From assembly GCA_029257185.1 (NCBI GenBank), contig JARICT010000032.1, positions 1 through 64,000 of the forward strand: 64,000 nt of DNA, read 5' to 3'. The stretch is from Quadrisphaera sp. (GTDB lineage Bacteria; Actinomycetota; Actinomycetes; Actinomycetales; Quadrisphaeraceae). Each line of letters starts with the position of its first letter. Position 1 is the first letter of the stretch. Positions 2 through 50,441 of this stretch are shown in pieces. Under the pieces are notes generated by a model. The model was not told the origin of the DNA. It searched no databases and saw nothing but the letters and a program-made list of their open reading frames with translations. A program made the position numbers and the translations under genes.

Positions 2-1600
2 GCGTACCAGGGCCGCTCGTCGGGGCGCGTGCGCGCGTTCGCCCTCTACGGGGACACGACGGGGGAGTCCGACGAGTTCGGCCTGCCCGTGCGCTACCCG
101 TGGGCCCAGGACTACCGCGGCTCCGCGACGGTGCTCTACGGCCACACGCCCGTCCCGGAGACGGAGTGGGTCAACAACACCATGTGCCTGGACACCGGGT
201 GCGTCTTCGGCGGCCGGCTCTCGGCGCTGCGCTACCCCGAGCGCGAGGTCGTCGCGGTCGACGCCCACCAGGTCTGGAGCGAGCCGGTACGCCCGCTGCG
301 CTCCGCCGAGCCCGAGCCCGAGCGCGCCGACGGCGTCCTGCACCTGTCCGACGTCATGGGGCGTCGCGCCGTGGAGACCACCCACGGCGGCGTCGTCACC
401 GTCGCGCAGGAGCAGAGCGCCGGCGCCCTGGAGGTGATGAGCCGCTTCGCGCTGCCGCCGGCGCACCTGCTGTGGCTGCCCCCGACGATGGCCCCGGCGC
501 CCACCGCGCAGCGCGGCGGGGTGCTCGAGCACCCGTCGTCGGCGTTCGAGGCCTACCGGCTCGACGGTGTGGCGCAGGTGGTGTGCCAGGAGAAGCACAT
601 GGGCTCGCGGGCCGTGGTGCTCGTGCGTCGCGACCCGGACGCGCCGACGGGCAGCGGTGACGGGTCGTCGACCGCTCCCGGCGCGGGGCCGGGCGCGGTC
701 CACACCCGCACGGGGCGCTCGTTCTTCGACGCGGCCACGACGACGACGCTGCTGGGCCGGGTGCGCGCGGCGGCCGGGGCCGCCGGGCTGTGGGACGAGC
801 TGGGCACCGACTGGCTGCTGCTCGACGCCGAGCTGCTGCCGTGGAGCGCCAAGGCCGAGGGGTTGGTCAAGGAGCGGTACGCGAGCGTCGGGGCCGCCGC
901 CCGGGCCGCGTTGCCGGCGGCGCTCGGCGTGCTGGACGCCGCCGCCGCGCGCGGGCTCGACGTCGCGGCGCTGCGCGAGCGCACCGCGGCCCGCGAGCGT
1001 GACGCGGCCGCCTTCACCGACGCCTACCGCCGCTACGTGGCCCCGAGCGACGGGCTCGACGGGGTGAGCCTCGCGCCCTTCGCCGTGCTGGCCAGCGCCG
1101 GCGCGTCGCACGCCGGGCGGGACCACCTCTGGCACCTGGGCCTCGCGGACCGGCTCGTCGAGGCTGACCCCTCGCTGTTCACCCCGACCCGGCGGGTGCT
1201 CGTGGACACCGGCGACGAGGCGTCGACGACGGCCGGCACGCGGTGGTGGGAGGAGCTGACGGCCAGCGGGGGAGAGGGCATGGTCGTCAAGCCGCTGGCC
1301 GGCCTGCTGACCACGAGGGCGCGGCGCAGCGGCGGCCGCGTCCTCGTGCAGCCCGGGCTCAAGGTGAGGGGCTCCGAGTACCTGCGGATGGTCTACGGCC
1401 CCGACTACCTGGAGCCCGCGACGCTGGAGCGGCTGCGCGGACGCCAGCTGGGCCGCAAGCGGTCCCTGGCCCAGCGCGAGCACGCCCTGGGCCTCGAGGC
1501 CGTCGAGCGGGTGGTCGCCGGTGAGCCGCTGTGGCGCGTCCACGAGGCGGTGTTCGCGGTGCTGGCGGCGGAGTCGGAGCCGGTCGACCCGCGGCTGTGA
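2..1600 (+). CDS. pnkp: Polynucleotide kinase-phosphatase (Pnkp), 3' part: phosphatase C-terminus plus ligase-like adenylyltransferase domain
   Basis: The gene is cut by the left edge; 532 residues are visible and open to base 2. Bacterial Pnkp repairs RNA ends and has kinase, 2',3'-phosphatase and ligase-like adenylyltransferase modules. Visible are the end of the metallophosphatase domain (GHTP and NNTMCLDTGCVFGG around residues 45-70) and then the nucleotidyltransferase domain with EKHMGSRA near residue 198, whose Lys would carry AMP, and GEGMVVKP and LKVRGSEYLR further on. The kinase domain would lie outside the window. Family knowledge says the ligase domain needs partner Hen1 for activity; hen1 is not visible here. 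The assignment rests on motif order and is strong; activity is inferred. Confidence 0.88.
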   Translation, partial: AYQGRSSGRVRAFALYGDTTGESDEFGLPVRYPWAQDYRGSATVLYGHTPVPETEWVNNTMCLDTGCVFGGRLSALRYPEREVVAVDAHQVWSEPVRPLRSAEPEPERADGVLHLSDVMGRRAVETTHGGVVTVAQEQSAGALEVMSRFALPPAHLLWLPPTMAPAPTAQRGGVLEHPSSAFEAYRLDGVAQVVCQEKHMGSRAVVLVRRDPDAPTGSGDGSSTAPGAGPGAVHTRTGRSFFDAATTTTLLGRVRAAAGAAGLWDELGTDWLLLDAELLPWSAKAEGLVKERYASVGAAARAALPAALGVLDAAAARGLDVAALRERTAARERDAAAFTDAYRRYVAPSDGLDGVSLAPFAVLASAGASHAGRDHLWHLGLADRLVEADPSLFTPTRRVLVDTGDEASTTAGTRWWEELTASGGEGMVVKPLAGLLTTRARRSGGRVLVQPGLKVRGSEYLRMVYGPDYLEPATLERLRGRQLGRKRSLAQREHALGLEAVERVVAGEPLWRVHEAVFAVLAAESEPVDPRL

Positions 1601-1695
1601 CCTCGCCCGTGGGCGCGGTGGCTCTCCGCACCGTGCGGCCCTCGCTCCTCCTGGCTGCCTCCCCGTCGCTCCCCGCCTCCCCCCTCTCGTCGCGG

Positions 1696-1752
1696 TGATC
1701 ATGGAGTGATGGCCCTTTGTGCCTGCCCGAAAGGGCCATTACCCCATGATCA
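1696..1752. repeat. Nested inverted repeat (REP-like intergenic palindrome)
   Basis: The outer arms TGATCATGG (1696-1704) and CCATGATCA (1744-1752) pair perfectly. Inside them ATGGCCCTTT (1709-1718) pairs with AAAGGGCCAT (1730-1739) around an 11-base loop. The element follows the pnkp gene and could act as a transcription terminator, but its architecture (two perfect stems separated by 4-base internal loops) looks like a dispersed intergenic palindrome. Confidence 0.75.
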
Positions 1753-1837
1753 CCACCGTTGGAGCGGCGAAGCTTCATGATCACCGCCGTGCGGAGAGCG
1801 GCGCGGACGGCCGGCACGACCCGCTGGCTCCGTCCGC

Positions 1838-1843
1838 TACCCT
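1838..1843 (+). promoter_or_regulatory. Candidate -10 element for the rpsP operon
   Basis: TACCCT fits the actinobacterial TANNNT -10 pattern and lies 125 bases before the rpsP start. I see no good -35 box, so the call is tentative. Confidence 0.3.
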
Positions 1844-1967
1844 GACGTGTCTTCACCGTGGTGGGCGCGGGCCCTCTCCCCGTGCGCCGCCGCCCTCAGG
1901 ACCAGGACGCCGTCGCGACCCACCGCGCGCCGAGCTGGCCCGCCTCGACTCATCAGGAGCTCCACAC

Positions 1968-2516
1968 GTGGCTGTCAAGATCCGGCTCAAGCGCCTCGGC
2001 AAGATGCGCGCCCCCTACTACCGCATCGTCGTCATGGACGCGCGCGCCAAGCGCGACAGCCGGGCGATCGAGGAGATCGGGAAGTACCACCCGACCGAGG
2101 AGCCCTCGTTCATCGAGGTCGATCGCGAGCGCGCGCAGTACTGGCTCGGCGTCGGCGCCCAGCCGACCGACCAGGTCGCCGCCCTGCTGAAGATCACCGG
2201 TGACTGGCAGACGTTCCGCGGAGAGCCCGGCGGCGAGGGCACCCTCAAGGTCAAGGAGCCCAAGGCCCCCGTGACCGCGCCGCAGCCGGCTAAGGCAGCC
2301 GACGAGGGCGCGACGAAGGAGGCACCGGCCAAGGCTGAGGAGCCCGCGAAGGCTGAGGAGCCTGCGAAGGCTGAGGAGCCCGCGGCCCCCGCGCAGCCGG
2401 AGGCCCCCGCCACGGCAGAGACCCCCGCGCAGCCGGAGGTCCCCGCCACGGCAGAGGCCGACGCCCCCGTGGCCGACGAGCAGGCCGAGGCCGGTCCCGC
2501 CGGCACCAGCTCCTGA
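1968..2516 (+). CDS. rpsP: 30S ribosomal protein S16
   Basis: S16 is a small-subunit assembly protein. The first 80 residues match the family ([20 protein letters not shown] and the KYHPTEEP segment). The GTG start at 1968 is chosen because AGGAG lies 8 bases upstream (1955-1959) and the conserved N-terminus begins there. At 182 residues it is about twice the usual bacterial length because of a C-terminal Ala/Glu/Pro tail. The tail contains three 18-base repeats (AKAEEP, 2328-2381) and two 36-base repeats (2391-2462). It heads the operon with khpA, rimM and trmD. Ala/Glu-rich tails on S16 are common in actinobacteria; their function is unknown to me. Confidence 0.97.
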
Positions 2517-2525
2517 TCCCTGCTC

Positions 2526-2786
2526 GTGGTGAGCACCGGCGTGCTGGCTGACGCACTCGACCACCTCGTCCGCGGGATCGTGGACAACCCCGAGGACGTC
2601 GCCATCTCCCAGGTAACGGGTCGTCGCGGCGATACCCTCCAGGTCCGCGTGCACCCCGACGACCTCGGGCGAGTCATCGGCCGGAGCGGGCGCACCGCGC
2701 GAGCGCTGCGCGTGGTCATGAGCGCGCTCGCTGACGGCGACGACGTCCGGGTGGACGTCGTGGACGTCGATCGGCCGCAGCGCTGA
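2526..2786 (+). CDS. khpA: KH-domain RNA-binding protein KhpA
   Basis: This 86-residue protein has a single KH domain with the core DDLGRVIGRSGRTARALR, whose GxxG-type loop (GRSG) contacts RNA. Its position between rpsP and rimM is the standard one. KhpA binds many RNAs and, in other bacteria, partners with KhpB in cell-division control. Two adjacent GTG codons (2526 and 2529) could start it; I keep the first. It begins 9 bases after rpsP ends, which suggests co-translation. Confidence 0.93.
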   Translation: MVSTGVLADALDHLVRGIVDNPEDVAISQVTGRRGDTLQVRVHPDDLGRVIGRSGRTARALRVVMSALADGDDVRVDVVDVDRPQR

Positions 2787-2865
2787 GACCTCGGACCCTC
2801 CTGACGACCGTGAGCGCGACCACCCGGTGCGGTGTCGCGGTCACGGTCGTGCGGTCGGGGGCGTC

Positions 2866-3462
2866 GTGCTGAGCCCCGCCGACGGAGCGGTGGTCGTCGC
2901 TCGCGTCGGCCGTCCCCAGGGCGTTCGTGGCGAGGTCACCGTGGAGGTGCGCACGGACGCCCCGGAGCGCCGCCTCGTGGTGGGCGCTGAGCTGTTGACG
3001 GACCCTCACGCCGGCACCAAGCACCTCGTCGGTGTGCGCCACCAGGGCGCCACGACCGTCCTGCGGCTGGCGGGCGTCGACGACCGGGAGGCCGCCGAGG
3101 CGCTGCGCGGAACGCTGCTCCTCGCGCCGGGACAGCTGGAGCGCGACCCCGACGGTGAGGTCGAGGACTGGGCGCTCTCCGAGCTGGTGGGCCTACGGGT
3201 GGAGCTCGAGGACGGCACCCACGCCGGCACCCTCGTCGGGCTCGATCCCTCGCCGGCGCACGACCTCCTCGTCGTCGAGCAGCCGTCCGGGCAGCGAGCG
3301 CTGCTGCCCTTCGTCCGCGCTCTCGTGCCCGTCGTCGACGTCACGGGCGGGCGAGTCGTGGTCGTCCCGCCGGGCGGCCTCCTGGACGTGGTGCCGGCGC
3401 AGGTCGACGACACGGAGCCGCGCTCCGACGGTGGTCTCCGCGAGCAGGGCGCGGGCGGCTGA
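2866..3462 (+). CDS. rimM: Ribosome maturation factor RimM
   Basis: RimM binds S19 and assists 30S maturation. The N-terminal RimM barrel begins VVVARVGRPQGVRGEV and the PRC-barrel follows from about residue 95 (DWALSELVGLRVELEDG). The GTG at 2866 places the conserved segment near the N-terminus and gives 198 residues; an upstream GTG at 2827 would add 13 poorly conserved residues. The protein ends 3 bases before trmD, and the pair is usually co-transcribed. Confidence 0.93.
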   Translation: MLSPADGAVVVARVGRPQGVRGEVTVEVRTDAPERRLVVGAELLTDPHAGTKHLVGVRHQGATTVLRLAGVDDREAAEALRGTLLLAPGQLERDPDGEVEDWALSELVGLRVELEDGTHAGTLVGLDPSPAHDLLVVEQPSGQRALLPFVRALVPVVDVTGGRVVVVPPGGLLDVVPAQVDDTEPRSDGGLREQGAGG

Positions 3463-3465
3463 GCC

Positions 3466-4278
3466 GTGCGCGTCGACGTCGTCACCATCTTCCCGGACTA
3501 CCTCGCCCCGCTCGACCTCTCGATCGTCGGGCGGGCGCGCCGGTCCGGGGCCGTGGACGTCCACGTCAGCGACCTGCGCGAGCACACCACCGACCGTCAT
3601 CGCACGGTCGACGACACCCCGGCGGGCGGTGGCGCCGGCATGGTGATGCGGCCGGAACCGTGGGGCGCGAGCCTCGACGCCGTCGTGGCGAGCGGCCGCG
3701 ACGCGGGTGCAGAGGGGTTGCCGCGGCTCCTCGTGCCCTCCCCGGCGGGGCTGCCCCTCACCCAGGCCATGGCCGGCGAGCTCGCCGCCGAGGACTGGTT
3801 GGTCTTCGCCTGCGGGCGCTACGAGGGCATCGACGAGCGCGTGCTCGACGAGGCGGGCGAGAGCGGCCTCTTCTCCGCCGTGACCCCGGTCAGCCTCGGC
3901 GACTACGTGCTGTGCGGCGGCGAGGTGGCCGTCCTCGCGATCGTCGAGGCGGTGGTGCGGCTGCTCCCCGGCGTCCTCGGGAACCCCGCCTCGATCGTGG
4001 AGGAGTCCCACAGCGCCGGCCTGCTCGAGCACCCGGCCTACACGCGCCCGGCGACCTGGCGAGGGCGCCAGGTGCCGGCCACGCTGATGTCCGGTGATCA
4101 CGCCCGTATCGCCCGCTGGCGCCGCGACCGCGCCCTCGAACGCACCGCGCAGCGGCGTCCTGACCTCCTGGCGGCGCTCCCGCCCGGCGCGCTCGACGAC
4201 GCGGACCTCGCCGCGCTCAGCGTGGCCGGGTGGTCCCCGGACCGCGTCCGGGAGGGCGCGGGCGAGCAGGACCTGTAG
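3466..4278 (+). CDS. trmD: tRNA (guanine-37-N1)-methyltransferase TrmD
   Basis: TrmD uses S-adenosylmethionine to methylate G37 next to the anticodon, which prevents +1 frameshifting. The 270-residue protein starts [16 protein letters not shown] and shows the SPOUT trefoil-knot motifs [13 protein letters not shown] near residues 121-133 and [13 protein letters not shown] near 144-156. The start is a GTG directly after rimM. Length and motifs are typical. Confidence 0.97.
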
Positions 4279-45488: not shown

Positions 45489-45579
45489 GAGCGGCACTCC
45501 TGGGTCTCGAGGCGGGAACCGGGCGAGCATCCCACCCGGGCCGCGCCACCGTCACAGGACCGGACGCGCCGGGCTTGCG

Positions 45580-45596
45580 CTTGACGCGGCGTCAAG
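45580..45596. promoter_or_regulatory. Candidate MerR-type operator upstream of the TipA-like gene
   Basis: CTTGACGC-G-GCGTCAAG is a perfect palindrome. It sits in a 19-base spacer between TTGCGC (45575-45580) and GAGCGT (45600-45605), which fits the long-spacer promoters that MerR proteins control. Confidence 0.55.
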
Positions 45597-45610
45597 GGGG
45601 AGCGTGTGAT

Positions 45611-45635
45611 CCACGCCGGAACGGTTCCGGCGTGG
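45611..45635. promoter_or_regulatory. Perfect 25-base palindrome between the operator and start of the TipA-like gene
   Basis: CCACGCCGGAAC-G-GTTCCGGCGTGG has 12-base arms. It ends at the first base of the ribosome site GGAGG, so in RNA it could form a stem next to that site; in DNA it could be a second regulator site. Confidence 0.7.
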
Positions 45636-45649
45636 AGGGGGCGGCAGCG

Positions 45650-46432
45650 ATGGATCAGCGCACGTGGAGCACCGCGGAGGTGGCCGCCATGACGGGGCTG
45701 ACCTCGAGGACGCTGCGCCACTACGACGCCATCGGCCTCGTGCGCCCGGCGTTCACCGGCCACGGGGGCCTGCGGCACTACGGCAGCGAGGAGCTGCTGA
45801 CGCTGCAGGAGGTGCTCGTGCTGCGCGAGCTCGGGCTCCGGCTCGACGTCGTGGCGCGGGTGCTCTCCGGCGAGCGCGACCGGCTCGAGGCCCTGCGGGG
45901 CCACGAGGCGGCGCTCCGCCAGGAGTCGGCCCGGGTGGGCCGGCTCGCCGACACCGTCGCCCGCACCCTCGTCCACCTCGAAGGAGGCACCACCATGTCC
46001 GAGGACGACACCACCACGATGTTCGACGGCGCCCGGCTCGACGCCGACCGCGCCGCGTACGAGGAGAAGCTCGTCGCCGAGCACGGCGAGGGGGTGCGGG
46101 CGGCGTTCCGCCAGTCCGAGCAGCGCACCGCCGGCTGGGGGCAGCAGCAGTACGAGAGCGCCGCCGCGGAGTGGGACGCGCTCGCGGCACGCTTCGTGGC
46201 GCTGCTGCGCTCGGGTGAGGCGGCGGGCGGCGAGGCGGCGCAGGCGCTCACGGCGGAGCACTTCGCCTCCGTGGCGCAGTACTGGACGCCGGGCCGCGCC
46301 AGCTACACCGGGCTCGCGCAGACCTACGTCGACGACCCGGCGTTCCGGTCGACGTTCGACGCGAAGGACCCGGCGCTCGCGGGGTACCTGCGCGACGCCA
46401 TGACGGCGTACGCGGAGCGCGAGCTGGCCTGA
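45650..46432 (+). CDS. MerR-family regulator with TipAS antibiotic-recognition domain
   Basis: The 260-residue protein has an N-terminal MerR helix-turn-helix (TAEVAAMTGLTSRTLRHYDAIGLVRP, residues 8-33), a coiled dimer helix to about residue 110, and a TipAS domain from about residue 125 (EHFASVAQYWTPGRASYTGLAQTYVDD). TipA binds thiopeptide antibiotics and activates transcription, including its own. ATG 45650 has GGAGG upstream. An in-frame ATG at 45995 has its own AAGGAGG and would give the TipAS domain alone, as in Streptomyces. Confidence 0.92.
   Translation: MDQRTWSTAEVAAMTGLTSRTLRHYDAIGLVRPAFTGHGGLRHYGSEELLTLQEVLVLRELGLRLDVVARVLSGERDRLEALRGHEAALRQESARVGRLADTVARTLVHLEGGTTMSEDDTTTMFDGARLDADRAAYEEKLVAEHGEGVRAAFRQSEQRTAGWGQQQYESAAAEWDALAARFVALLRSGEAAGGEAAQALTAEHFASVAQYWTPGRASYTGLAQTYVDDPAFRSTFDAKDPALAGYLRDAMTAYAERELA
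45981..45997 (+). promoter_or_regulatory. Internal ribosome site and ATG for a short TipAS product
   Basis: AAGGAGG at 45981-45987 is a near-perfect ribosome site, 7 bases before the in-frame ATG at 45995. The predicted short product would be 145 residues, from MSEDDTTTMFDG to the common stop. Confidence 0.75.
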
Positions 46433-46507: not shown

Positions 46508-47056
46508 GTGCCAGCACCGACCCCTGGCGCCGGGCCCGCGACGGGCTCGGCGCGCACCGTCACGTCCGTGCGCCTCACGGCCTCGACCTACGGCTCCCCA
46601 CAGGCCCGCGAGCTGACCGCGGAGCTGCAGGCCGAGTACGTCCAGCGCTACGGCAGCCCGGACGACGCGCCGCTCGCCGCCGAGGAGCTGGCGCCGCCGT
46701 CCGGAGCCTTCTTCGTCGCCCACGCCGGCGAGGAGCTGGTGGGGATGGTGGGCCTGCGTGCCCACGACGGCGACGACGACACCTCGCCGGGAGCGGGCCT
46801 GCCCAGCGCGGAGATGAAGCGGCTCTACGTGCGCGCCGGCCACCGTCGGCGCGGGTACGCTCGGGCGATCCTGGCGCTCACCGAGCAGCGTGCCCTCGAG
46901 CTCGGCTACGGCCGCCTGGTGCTCGAGACGGGGACCGAGCAGCCCGAGGCGATGGCGCTGTACGCCGCGCAGGGCTACCACCGCATCCCCGGGTTCGGCC
47001 ACTACAGCGGCGAGGAGCTCAGCCGGTGCTTCGCCAAGGTGCTGCGCGCCGGCTGA
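46508..47056 (+). CDS. GNAT-family N-acetyltransferase
   Basis: The 182-residue protein has the acetyl-CoA binding motif in LYVRAGHRRRGYARAILALTEQRALELG and a C-terminal GYHRIPGFGHY. The substrate is unknown. GTG 46508 is supported by the -10-like box six bases upstream; a GTG at 46568 would also keep the whole domain. Its stop lies 3 bases from that of the convergent oxidase gene. Confidence 0.88.
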   Translation: MPAPTPGAGPATGSARTVTSVRLTASTYGSPQARELTAELQAEYVQRYGSPDDAPLAAEELAPPSGAFFVAHAGEELVGMVGLRAHDGDDDTSPGAGLPSAEMKRLYVRAGHRRRGYARAILALTEQRALELGYGRLVLETGTEQPEAMALYAAQGYHRIPGFGHYSGEELSRCFAKVLRAG

Positions 47057-47059
47057 GGC

Positions 47060-48394
47060 TCAGCCCTCGGTCAGCAGGTCCGGGGTGAGATCGCCCAGGT
47101 CCGCGCAGCCGCTCAGGGTCATGGCGATGGACAGCTCGCCCAGCAGGTGCTCCACCACCGCGGTGACGCCGCGCTCCGCGGCGAGCGCGAGGCCGTACAC
47201 GTACGGACGCCCGAGCAGCACCGCGCGGGCGCCCAGCGCGAGGGCCACCATGACGTCGGCGGCGCCGCGCACCCCGCTGTCGAAGAGCACCGGCACGCGG
47301 CCCGCCACCTCGGCGACCACGCCGGGCAGGGCGTCGAGGGCGGCTGTTGCCCCGTCGACCTGGCGACCTCCGTGGTTGGACACGACGATCCCGTCCACGC
47401 CGTGCTCCAGCGCGAGCGCCGCGTCACCGCGGTCCTGGACGCCCTTGACGAGGATCGGCAGGTCCGTCAGGGCCCGCAGGAACGCGAGGTCGCCCCACCG
47501 CAGCGCCGGGTCGGCGAACACGTCCAGGAAGGTCTCCACGGCCGCGCGGGGCAGCGGGGAGCGCAGGTTCTCCAGCAGCGGCCCCGGGTAGCGGCGGGCC
47601 GTGGACACGAGCGTGGTCAGCGCGCCCGGCCCGGGCAGCGGGCCGTCGCGCAGCACGCCGCTGCCGCCCGCGGCCGCCCGGGCGCGGACCAGCTCGGTGA
47701 ACACCGGGTCGGAGGTGTACTGGGCGATGCCCATGCCACGGGTGAAGGGCAGCGAGCCGAGCTGCAGGTCCAGGGGGCGCCAGCCGAGCATCGTCGTGTC
47801 GAGCGTGACCACGATCGCGGTGGAGCCGATGGCCTCCGCGCGGCGCACGAAGCTGGTGATGAGGTCCCGGTCCTTGCTCCAGTAGAGCTGGAACCACCGT
47901 GGCGCCTCGCCCAGCGCCTGCGCGGTGGCTTCCATCGGGTGCGAGCCCTGCGTGGAGATCACCATCGGGACGCCGGTCCGCGCGGACGAGCGCGCCACCG
48001 CCAGGTCACCGCCCCTGTCAGCCTGCTCGAGCACGCCGATGGGCGCGAGGAGCACGGGGGCCGGCAGGTGCTCGCCGAACAGCTCGAGCGAGGTGTCGGG
48101 GCGCGCCGCCCCCCGCAGCATCCGCGGCACCAGGCGCCGCCGCTCGAACGCTTCCCGGTTGGCGCGGGCGGTGCGCTGCTGCCCTGCGGAGCCCGCGACG
48201 TAGGCCCACGACCGCCGGCTCATGCGCCGCTGCGCCGCGGCCTCCAGCGCCTCGGGCAGCACGGGGAGCGGCGGCGTGCGCCCGAGCGCGCCGGCCCGGT
48301 AGATCGAGGTCTGCACCGCCCGGCCGGCGTGCTCGCCGGGGACCTCCCGCACGTCGTGCTGGTGGGCTGGAGCGGTGACCCTGGTCTGCGTCAT
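47060..48394 (-). CDS. FMN-dependent alpha-hydroxyacid oxidase (lactate oxidase/monooxygenase-like)
   Basis: The 444-residue TIM-barrel flavoprotein has the family active site IVVSNHGGRQVDGA with the base His341, WFQLYW near residue 170, and VLFDSGVRGAADV and AVLLGRPYVYG near the end. Family members oxidise L-2-hydroxyacids to 2-oxoacids and reduce oxygen to hydrogen peroxide, or decarboxylate in the monooxygenase branch. The substrate size is unknown. It is divergent from a CYP152 peroxygenase gene 79 bases away. ATG 48394 has a -10-like GATGCT 6 bases upstream. Confidence 0.88.
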   Translation of the reverse strand: MTQTRVTAPAHQHDVREVPGEHAGRAVQTSIYRAGALGRTPPLPVLPEALEAAAQRRMSRRSWAYVAGSAGQQRTARANREAFERRRLVPRMLRGAARPDTSLELFGEHLPAPVLLAPIGVLEQADRGGDLAVARSSARTGVPMVISTQGSHPMEATAQALGEAPRWFQLYWSKDRDLITSFVRRAEAIGSTAIVVTLDTTMLGWRPLDLQLGSLPFTRGMGIAQYTSDPVFTELVRARAAAGGSGVLRDGPLPGPGALTTLVSTARRYPGPLLENLRSPLPRAAVETFLDVFADPALRWGDLAFLRALTDLPILVKGVQDRGDAALALEHGVDGIVVSNHGGRQVDGATAALDALPGVVAEVAGRVPVLFDSGVRGAADVMVALALGARAVLLGRPYVYGLALAAERGVTAVVEHLLGELSIAMTLSGCADLGDLTPDLLTEG

Positions 48395-48400
48395 CGGCCC

Positions 48401-48406
48401 AGCATC
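48401..48406 (-). promoter_or_regulatory. -10-like box 6 bases before the alpha-hydroxyacid oxidase gene
   Basis: On the minus strand GATGCT is followed by six bases and the ATG at 48394; no ribosome site is present. Confidence 0.5.
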
Positions 48407-48461
48407 GACCCGGCCGCTCGTCGTCGCACGTCCTCCCCGTGCGATCACGTCGCCGGGCTGC

Positions 48462-48467
48462 CAGCCT
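48462..48467 (+). promoter_or_regulatory. -10-like box 6 bases before the CYP152 gene
   Basis: CAGCCT is followed by six bases and the ATG at 48474, with no ribosome site. Confidence 0.45.
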
Positions 48468-48473
48468 CGGGCC

Positions 48474-49736
48474 ATGACACCGACACCCGACGTCGCCCCG
48501 CGCGACGCAGCCCCCGTCCCCAGCCTCGGCTTCCTGGCCCAGGGCTACCGGTTCGGCGCGAACCGCTTCCGCCGCTACCGCAGCGACGTCGTGCAGACCC
48601 GCCTCGCTGCGGAGAAGACCACGCTGATCGCGGGTGAGGAGGCCGCTGAGGTCCTCTACGACACCGCGAAGTTCCAGCGGGACGGCGCCATGCCGCTGCC
48701 CGTGCGGCAGACGCTGCTCGGGGTGGGCGGCGTGCAGGGCCTCGACGGGGAGCAGCACCGTTCCCGCAAGGCCATGCTGCTCTCGTTCATGAACGCCGAC
48801 CGCTCACCCGAGGTGGCGAGGCTCTTCGCGCTCCAGTGGCGGGCCGCCCTGCCGGCGTGGAGCCGGGCCGGGAGCATCGTGCTGCTCGACGAGAGCGCGA
48901 AGCTGCTGTGCCGCGCCGTGTGCGAGTGGTCCGGAGTGCCGCTGGCCGAGGACGAGGTGGACGTGCGGACCGCGGACCTGCGCTCGCTCATCGAGGACGT
49001 CGGGGACTTCCGGCCGTGGAACATCGGCTACTTCCGCGCCCGCGCCGCACGGACCCGCGCCGAGGCGTGGGGCTCCTCGCTCATCGAGAGGACCCGCAGC
49101 GGCGAGCTCACGCCGCCGGCCGACAGCCCGCTCGCCGTGGTGGCGGCCTACCGGGAGGACGGCCAGCTGCTCGAGACCCGCATCGCCGCCGTGGACCTGC
49201 TCAACGTGCTGCGCCCGACGGTGGCCATCCACCGCTGGATCGCGCTCGCGGGCCTCGCCCTCGAGCTGCACCCCCGGTGGAAGGAGGAGCTGAGGGACAG
49301 CGACGACGACGTCGAGGCGTTCGTCCACGAGGTGCGCCGCTACTACCCGTTCTTCCCCATGGTCGCGGGCAAGGTGCGCCAGGCGTTCGAGTGGCGCGGG
49401 GTGAGGTTCCCGGTCGGACGGCGGGTCATGCTCGACATCACCGCGACCGACCACGACCCCCGGACCTTCGACGCCCCGGAGGAGTTCCGCCCGGAGCGCT
49501 TCCACGACTGGGACGGCAGCGCCTTCAGCTTCGTCCCGCAGGGCGGCGGCGACCACGCCACCGGCCACCGCTGCTCGGGGGAGTGGATCACCATCGACGT
49601 CATGGCCGCCGCGGTACGTCTGCTCACGCGGGAGACGGCCTACGAGGCTCCCGCGCAGGACCTGCGGGTCAGCTGGCGGCGGATGCCCACCGCGCCGCGC
49701 AGCGGGCTGGTCATGTCCGGCGTGCGCGCGGCCTGA
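48474..49736 (+). CDS. Cytochrome P450 fatty-acid peroxygenase (CYP152 family)
   Basis: CYP152 enzymes use hydrogen peroxide, not a reductase, to hydroxylate or decarboxylate fatty acids. The family hallmarks are present: Arg247-Pro248 in LNVLRPTVAI, which replaces the usual acid-alcohol pair and binds the substrate carboxylate, and the haem Cys367 in QGGGDHATGHRCSGEW. At the position that is His85 in the decarboxylase OleT, this protein has Gln88 (VQGLDGEQH), as in the hydroxylases BSbeta and SPalpha. Hydroxylation of fatty acids at C2 or C3 is therefore more likely than alkene formation. 420 residues, typical length. Confidence 0.93.
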   Translation: MTPTPDVAPRDAAPVPSLGFLAQGYRFGANRFRRYRSDVVQTRLAAEKTTLIAGEEAAEVLYDTAKFQRDGAMPLPVRQTLLGVGGVQGLDGEQHRSRKAMLLSFMNADRSPEVARLFALQWRAALPAWSRAGSIVLLDESAKLLCRAVCEWSGVPLAEDEVDVRTADLRSLIEDVGDFRPWNIGYFRARAARTRAEAWGSSLIERTRSGELTPPADSPLAVVAAYREDGQLLETRIAAVDLLNVLRPTVAIHRWIALAGLALELHPRWKEELRDSDDDVEAFVHEVRRYYPFFPMVAGKVRQAFEWRGVRFPVGRRVMLDITATDHDPRTFDAPEEFRPERFHDWDGSAFSFVPQGGGDHATGHRCSGEWITIDVMAAAVRLLTRETAYEAPAQDLRVSWRRMPTAPRSGLVMSGVRAA

Positions 49737-49753
49737 GCCGCCGGCCAGGACGG

Positions 49754-49796
49754 ACGAACGGCGAGGCGCCCCGGAGATGGGTGCCTCGCCGTTCGT
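49754..49796. terminator. Strong terminator after the CYP152 gene
   Basis: An 18-base stem (49754-49771 with 49779-49796; one G-T pair) starts ACGAACGGCG and ends CGCCGTTCGT around a 7-base loop. It lies between convergent genes. Confidence 0.85.
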
Positions 49797-49844
49797 GACG
49801 TGCGGGGCGGCCCTGAGCCGTCGCCGACCCGGGCGCGCGGTGGC

Positions 49845-50324
49845 TCAGGCCTTCGACGTGCCCTTGTCCGCCACGGGCTTGGTGTCGGGGGTGGCCTTGC
49901 TGTCGGCGAAGCCGCTGTCGGGCGAGGCCACGCCGGACCCGGAGGCGTCGTGGTCCGTGTTCTCCGAGCGGGCGGTCACCGGGCCCGGCGCCTTCGAGCC
50001 GGTGGTCGGAGCGCCAGAGGGCTTCTGGCCCGAGCCGGAGGTGGTGGACGACGACGAGCTCTTCCCGCTCACGTCCTTGCCGGTCTTCTCCTCGACCTTC
50101 GAGGTGGCCTGGTCGACGAGCTTGGCCGCCTGCGGCGAGCTGGAGGCCGCAGCCTTGGCGCCCTTGACGGCCTGGTCCTGGGCGGCGTCGACGCCCTGCT
50201 GGACCTTGGGGTTGTTCCAGGTCTTGGCTGCGGCGGTCTTGATCTGCTCGTACCGCTGGCGGCCCGCTGCGGCGCCCAGCACGTAGCCGACGCCCACGCC
50301 GGCGAGGAAGCTGATCTTGCCCAT
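49845..50324 (-). CDS. YtxH-like small membrane-associated protein
   Basis: The 159-residue protein starts MGKISFLAGVGVGYVLGAAA, a Gly-rich hydrophobic segment, followed by GRQRYEQIKTAAAKTWNNP, the usual YtxH pattern. The rest is Ala/Ser/Lys-rich and probably disordered. Members are linked to general stress in Firmicutes; the function is not known. ATG 50324 has AGGAG upstream. Confidence 0.8.
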   Translation of the reverse strand: MGKISFLAGVGVGYVLGAAAGRQRYEQIKTAAAKTWNNPKVQQGVDAAQDQAVKGAKAAASSSPQAAKLVDQATSKVEEKTGKDVSGKSSSSSTTSGSGQKPSGAPTTGSKAPGPVTARSENTDHDASGSGVASPDSGFADSKATPDTKPVADKGTSKA

Positions 50325-50441
50325 GGTGGTGCTCCTGATCTCTCGGGGTCCCCGGTCTGCCCGGGCTGCCGCTCGTGCGGCCTCGGTGCCAGTCTTACCG
50401 ACGATCGCCGCCGACCGCACGCGCGGTCGGCGGCGGCGCTC

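Follow-up and report, generated by a model that had tools for sequence, protein, structure and literature searches.

A CYP152 peroxygenase-type cytochrome P450 gene and a gene for an FMN-dependent 2-hydroxyacid oxidising enzyme lie back to back in the 64,000-nucleotide stretch of Quadrisphaera sp. DNA analysed here (contig JARICT010000032.1, hereafter the window), and on balance the two probably encode ordinary metabolic enzymes that were juxtaposed in one lineage and act independently. The pair is a lineage-specific, accessory feature and not a conserved module. The P450 gene (48474-49736, plus strand) encodes 420 residues, the flavoenzyme gene (47060-48394, minus strand) encodes 444 residues, and both reading frames are open at these positions. 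An earlier note on this DNA, which assigned both genes to 47060-49736, described them as divergent and 79 bases apart and proposed that they run a self-feeding peroxide cycle; the layout is accurate, as the region between the two ATGs (48395-48473) is exactly 79 bases long. No sigma-70-like promoter match is present in this region. The flavoenzyme start that fits its orthologs is the ATG at 48394, and a second, upstream ATG at 48475 (minus strand) would overlap the start of the P450. The GC content of the pair is approximately 75%, the same as that of the surrounding DNA, which gives no support to the pair being a recent foreign DNA island. The source assembly is fragmented (3.05 Mb in 178 contigs) and contains no close paralogue of either gene: the sole other FMN_dh match is weak (38.8 bits), and the other three P450 matches reach only E values of approximately 1e-5. 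A MerR-family regulator with a TipAS antibiotic-recognition domain is located two genes from the flavoenzyme (45575-46432).

By sequence comparison, the P450 is a member of the CYP152 family. Its best match in the PDB is P450SPα (CYP152B1 of Sphingomonas paucimobilis, PDB 3awm; E 7e-115, 388 bits), to which it is 44% identical over 411 residues, followed by BSβ (approximately 367 bits), the P450 of 5yhj (339 bits) and OleT (274 bits). The strong PDB matches are all of the CYP152 type (388 to 204 bits), and the next P450 scores 52 bits; the score against the NCBIfam CypC model is 473 bits, which is under the 600-bit cut-off of that model. The residues previously named as CYP152 hallmarks, Gln88, Arg247-Pro248 and Cys367, are all found at these positions. 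Arg247-Pro248 aligns with the RPTVAI motif of P450SPα, which contains the carboxylate-binding Arg-Pro of the distal I helix, and the Arg-Pro motif, the Gln and the heme Cys context GHRC.GEW are common to the two enzymes, even though they come from different phyla.

Gln88 occupies the position of His85 of OleT, and the His of an OleT-type decarboxylase is thus replaced in the window P450; the same position is Gln84 in P450SPα and Gln85 in BSβ, which corresponds to the hydroxylase state (PMC5818669). Gln88 and the order of the PDB scores disfavour an OleT-type alkene former, and the similarity to P450SPα together with Gln in place of His makes hydroxylation of a fatty acid at C2 (α), rather than alkene formation, plausible, as the earlier note had argued from the Gln. 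The C2 regiochemistry of the window enzyme is predicted and not proven, because BSβ also carries Gln at this position, yet makes largely 3-hydroxy acids.

The flavoenzyme consists of an FMN_dh domain (383 bits), and its active site is intact, as had been noted before: the SNHGGRQ motif (47360-47380, minus strand) supplies His341 and Arg344 in the alignment, and these residues, together with Tyr65, Tyr171, Asp199, Arg206 and Lys317, match the same residues in lactate 2-monooxygenase (LMO), lactate oxidase (LOX) and glycolate oxidase (GOX). Two PDB entries rank above LMO, but both are tandem fusions of lactate oxidase that are scored over two copies; LMO is therefore taken as the nearest single-chain solved relative (308 bits, versus at most 245 bits for hydroxyacid oxidases and at most approximately 211 bits for single-chain lactate oxidases). 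The flavoenzyme aligns end to end with the LMO of Mycobacterium smegmatis (PDB 6dvh; 41% identity over 416 residues), with which it shares all catalytic residues, the N-terminal extension IYxxGxxGxxP, the lid motif GWRPxDL..PF..G..QYxxDPVF and a glycine at the position of LMO Gly99 (Gly120 in the flavoenzyme). LOX and GOX (7f22 and 1gox) share the FMN_dh fold family and the catalytic residues with the flavoenzyme, whereas they have Ala in place of Gly120 and a short loop 4.

The loop 4, or lid, segment of the flavoenzyme (residues 199-300; 47495-47800, minus strand) contains the LMO lid motif and approximately 30 extra residues. Counted for all enzymes as the residues between the same two fixed anchors enclosing loop 4, this stretch is 102 residues long in the flavoenzyme and 97-103 in the orthologs of its subclade, compared with 70 in LMO (a difference of approximately 32 from the M. 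smegmatis enzyme), 61-70 across the LMO groups, 57 in GOX and 51 in LOX. In a quick 67-row tree with long outgroup branches, the flavoenzyme and 27 other sequences form their own branch (28 rows, aLRT 97), which is separate from the clade of LMO proper and falls with LMO in a supergroup (aLRT 99) that leaves LOX, GOX and an ordinary FMN_dh paralogue outside. These comparisons group the flavoenzyme with LMO and not with lactate or glycolate oxidase, and its likely assignment shifts from a peroxide-releasing oxidase to an LMO-type long-loop branch that deserves a substrate screen. At the threshold applied, up to 52 of 396 genomes from the order contain a member of the long-loop-4 subclade. In one of these orthologous loci (L100 in genome G389, 862-3588), the flavoenzyme ortholog stands in tandem with a second FMN_dh gene to which it is 34% identical. 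Shared neighbours were considered as a pointer to the substrate, and no neighbour genes common to the flavoenzyme orthologs were found beyond close relatives.

The placement in the LMO supergroup bears directly on whether the flavoenzyme would release peroxide. Inside its closed active site, LMO lets H2O2 react with the keto acid, so that the products of the coupled reaction are CO2, water and the shortened acid; the long structured loop 4 is proposed to promote this coupling (PMC7039449). A decarboxylating monooxygenase, which the earlier note had listed among the outcomes that would count against its proposal, is made likelier by the supergroup placement, and an LMO-like flavoenzyme would supply no peroxide, so that a peroxide loop would fail and a two-step α-oxidation would remain. 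In such a pathway, the P450 would form a 2-hydroxy fatty acid with cellular H2O2, and the flavoenzyme would use O2 to turn it into the Cn-1 fatty acid, with CO2 and water but no free peroxide as the other products. The aLRT of 99, the 41% identity to the M. smegmatis enzyme, the lid motif, the N-terminal extension, the Gly99 equivalent and the long loop 4 are consistent with this route. However, the subclade lies apart from LMO proper and its loop 4 carries an extra insert, so that the coupled reaction is not guaranteed; the substrate size is only assumed, and the pairing with the P450 is not conserved. The route as a whole is rather unlikely, at perhaps one chance in several. Gly120 also matches, in the alignment, a substitution in lactate oxidase: in 1996, Yorita is said to have found that changing Ala95 to Gly turned this enzyme into a long-chain hydroxyacid oxidase. 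By this analogy, Gly120 could admit longer side chains in the flavoenzyme.

The self-feeding cycle of the earlier note has a close engineered precedent. A one-pot cascade of P450SPα and the (S)-2-hydroxyacid oxidase of Aerococcus viridans recycled H2O2 internally (Gandomkar 2017, PMC5768024). Octanoic acid was turned into 2-oxooctanoic acid although H2O2 was substoichiometric, with conversion of up to 99% at 0.3 equivalents, and the authors were aware of no previous enzymatic system that recycled H2O2 internally without a sacrificial co-substrate. Both the two types of reaction in the cascade and their order are those of the proposed cycle, in which the P450 would use H2O2 to form an (S)-2-hydroxy fatty acid and the flavoenzyme would oxidise this to the 2-oxo acid, releasing H2O2 for the next turnover. 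The loop is thus feasible in vitro and the stereochemistry fits, and the concept is not new. The cascade differs in that enzymes of unrelated organisms were mixed in vitro, with an oxidase of the A. viridans type and not of the LMO type, and that no natural gene pair was involved. The P450SPα-like P450, the side-chain room that Gly120 could provide and the divergent adjacency also speak for the cycle in the window. Against it, the flavoenzyme is nested with LMOs, which release no H2O2 (mechanism in PMC7039449), fatty 2-hydroxy acids are only hypothetical substrates of its subclade, recycling in the engineered system was limited by H2O2 loss and required priming (PMC5768024), and none of 88 other distinct CYP152 genes has an FMN_dh gene in the flanking DNA surveyed. 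The earlier proposal is thus supported in part: the cycle is a possible, chemically sound but biologically unsupported reading that we consider improbable. A more specific version, in which the flavoenzyme represents a long-chain-adapted, peroxide-releasing branch of the LMO supergroup and the natural two-gene system feeds the CYP152 enzyme from its own product, is a long shot. As far as a limited literature search goes, the in-cell peroxide source of CYP152 enzymes is not settled; a natural H2O2-recycling pair, if true, would answer this question and provide a ready biocatalyst.

The co-occurrence survey suggested in the earlier note went against the cycle, as the pairing is not conserved, an outcome that the note itself had named as counting against its proposal. 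Among 396 genomes of the order, the flavoenzyme is present in 52, the P450 in 38 and both in eight, including the source genome. When the source genome is left out, seven genomes contain both genes versus 4.8 expected, which is not significant (Fisher p = 0.18), and for G150, one of the seven, the flavoenzyme match is weak and partial; in these seven, the two genes are located on separate contigs or at a distance of 140 kb from each other. In a sample of 297 genomes of the phylum, both genes occur in the source genome only. None of the other 88 distinct CYP152 genes was found to have an FMN_dh gene in its flanks, in a survey of 89 loci including the window in which both sides extended at least 1 kb in 83 and at least 5 kb in 32, and no joint CYP152-FMN_dh locus is present among the plasmid loci examined. 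A conserved operon or divergon is ruled out by the flank and co-occurrence surveys.

Almost all members of the family lack both genes. Family members nevertheless retain the gabaT-dxr-rseP block that surrounds the pair in the window, and this retention indicates that the pair is an accessory feature. Four family members additionally retain the GNAT and YtxH-like genes, again without the pair, and in these four the two genes are direct divergent neighbours. In the window (46508-50333), the GNAT and YtxH-like genes flank the flavoenzyme-P450 pair in convergent order, and this difference in orientation from the relatives indicates a rearrangement of the locus, beyond a simple interruption. The pair was possibly gained as one unit.

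In the independent-enzyme reading favoured here, the P450 would hydroxylate a fatty acid with H2O2 already present in the cell, most likely at C2 like P450SPα, and the flavoenzyme would separately oxidise an L-2-hydroxyacid with O2 in an LMO-type closed active site. If the two were linked, the fatty acid would be converted through the 2-hydroxy acid to the 2-oxo acid or to a one-carbon-shorter acid in a short α-oxidation. Several observations count against independence: the predicted P450 product fits the substrate class of the flavoenzyme, the 79-base divergent spacing would permit co-regulation, and the two genes, being absent from almost all family members, may have arrived together. Additionally, chance adjacency of a CYP152 and an FMN_dh gene is expected approximately 0.1 times per 89 loci, a rough estimate from one to three FMN_dh genes per genome, but the window was selected for this adjacency.

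The neighbourhoods of other CYP152 genes contain different partners. In all nine alphaproteobacterial plasmid loci that were opened (L152-L160; NZ_CP053226, NZ_CP034904, NZ_CP086110, NZ_CP069357, NZ_CP039909, NZ_CP030129, LR723678, NZ_CP083242 and NZ_CP015441), lspA (signal peptidase II) and/or a cation transporter gene is located nearby, and several of the nine also contain genes for MAPEG, ArsR or MerR regulators, a P-type ATPase, merA or peroxiredoxin. By gene content, these loci look like metal-resistance islands, and a literature search for the combination of CYP152 with such islands found no report.

These islands bear on a further reading, in which the 2- or 3-hydroxy fatty acids formed by the P450 are destined for membrane lipids, or their formation is a peroxide-consuming stress response, and the oxidase is unrelated. 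The plasmid CYP152 genes, which are 45-50% identical, are found there in a stress context with transporters, lspA and sometimes peroxiredoxin, and not in an α-oxidation context; however, no such context is present in the window and the plasmid P450s come from another phylum, so that this role for the window P450 is quite unlikely.

A pyruvate-oxidase-like TPP enzyme gene is located beside or within approximately 6.6 kb of a CYP152 gene in at least three lineages (loci L116, L141, L030, L113, L118 and L122), belonging to the PRK08273 family in the three that were scanned (L030, L116 and L118). The two genes abut in L116 and are separated by a 38-base gap in L141, and an acetolactate-synthase-type gene is present near the CYP152 gene of L160. 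Should these TPP enzymes produce H2O2, the peroxide used by CYP152 would more plausibly come from them than from the flavoenzyme in the window. Additionally, a ferredoxin-NAD+ reductase-type gene lies 0.1-3.5 kb from several actinobacterial CYP152 genes (L033, L112, L116, L120 and L122), suggesting that some of these enzymes may be reductase-driven. The CYP152 genes of L071 (G187) and L075 (G375), from two species of one genus, each have the matched frame interrupted by a single in-frame TGA, a candidate for decay or sequencing error.
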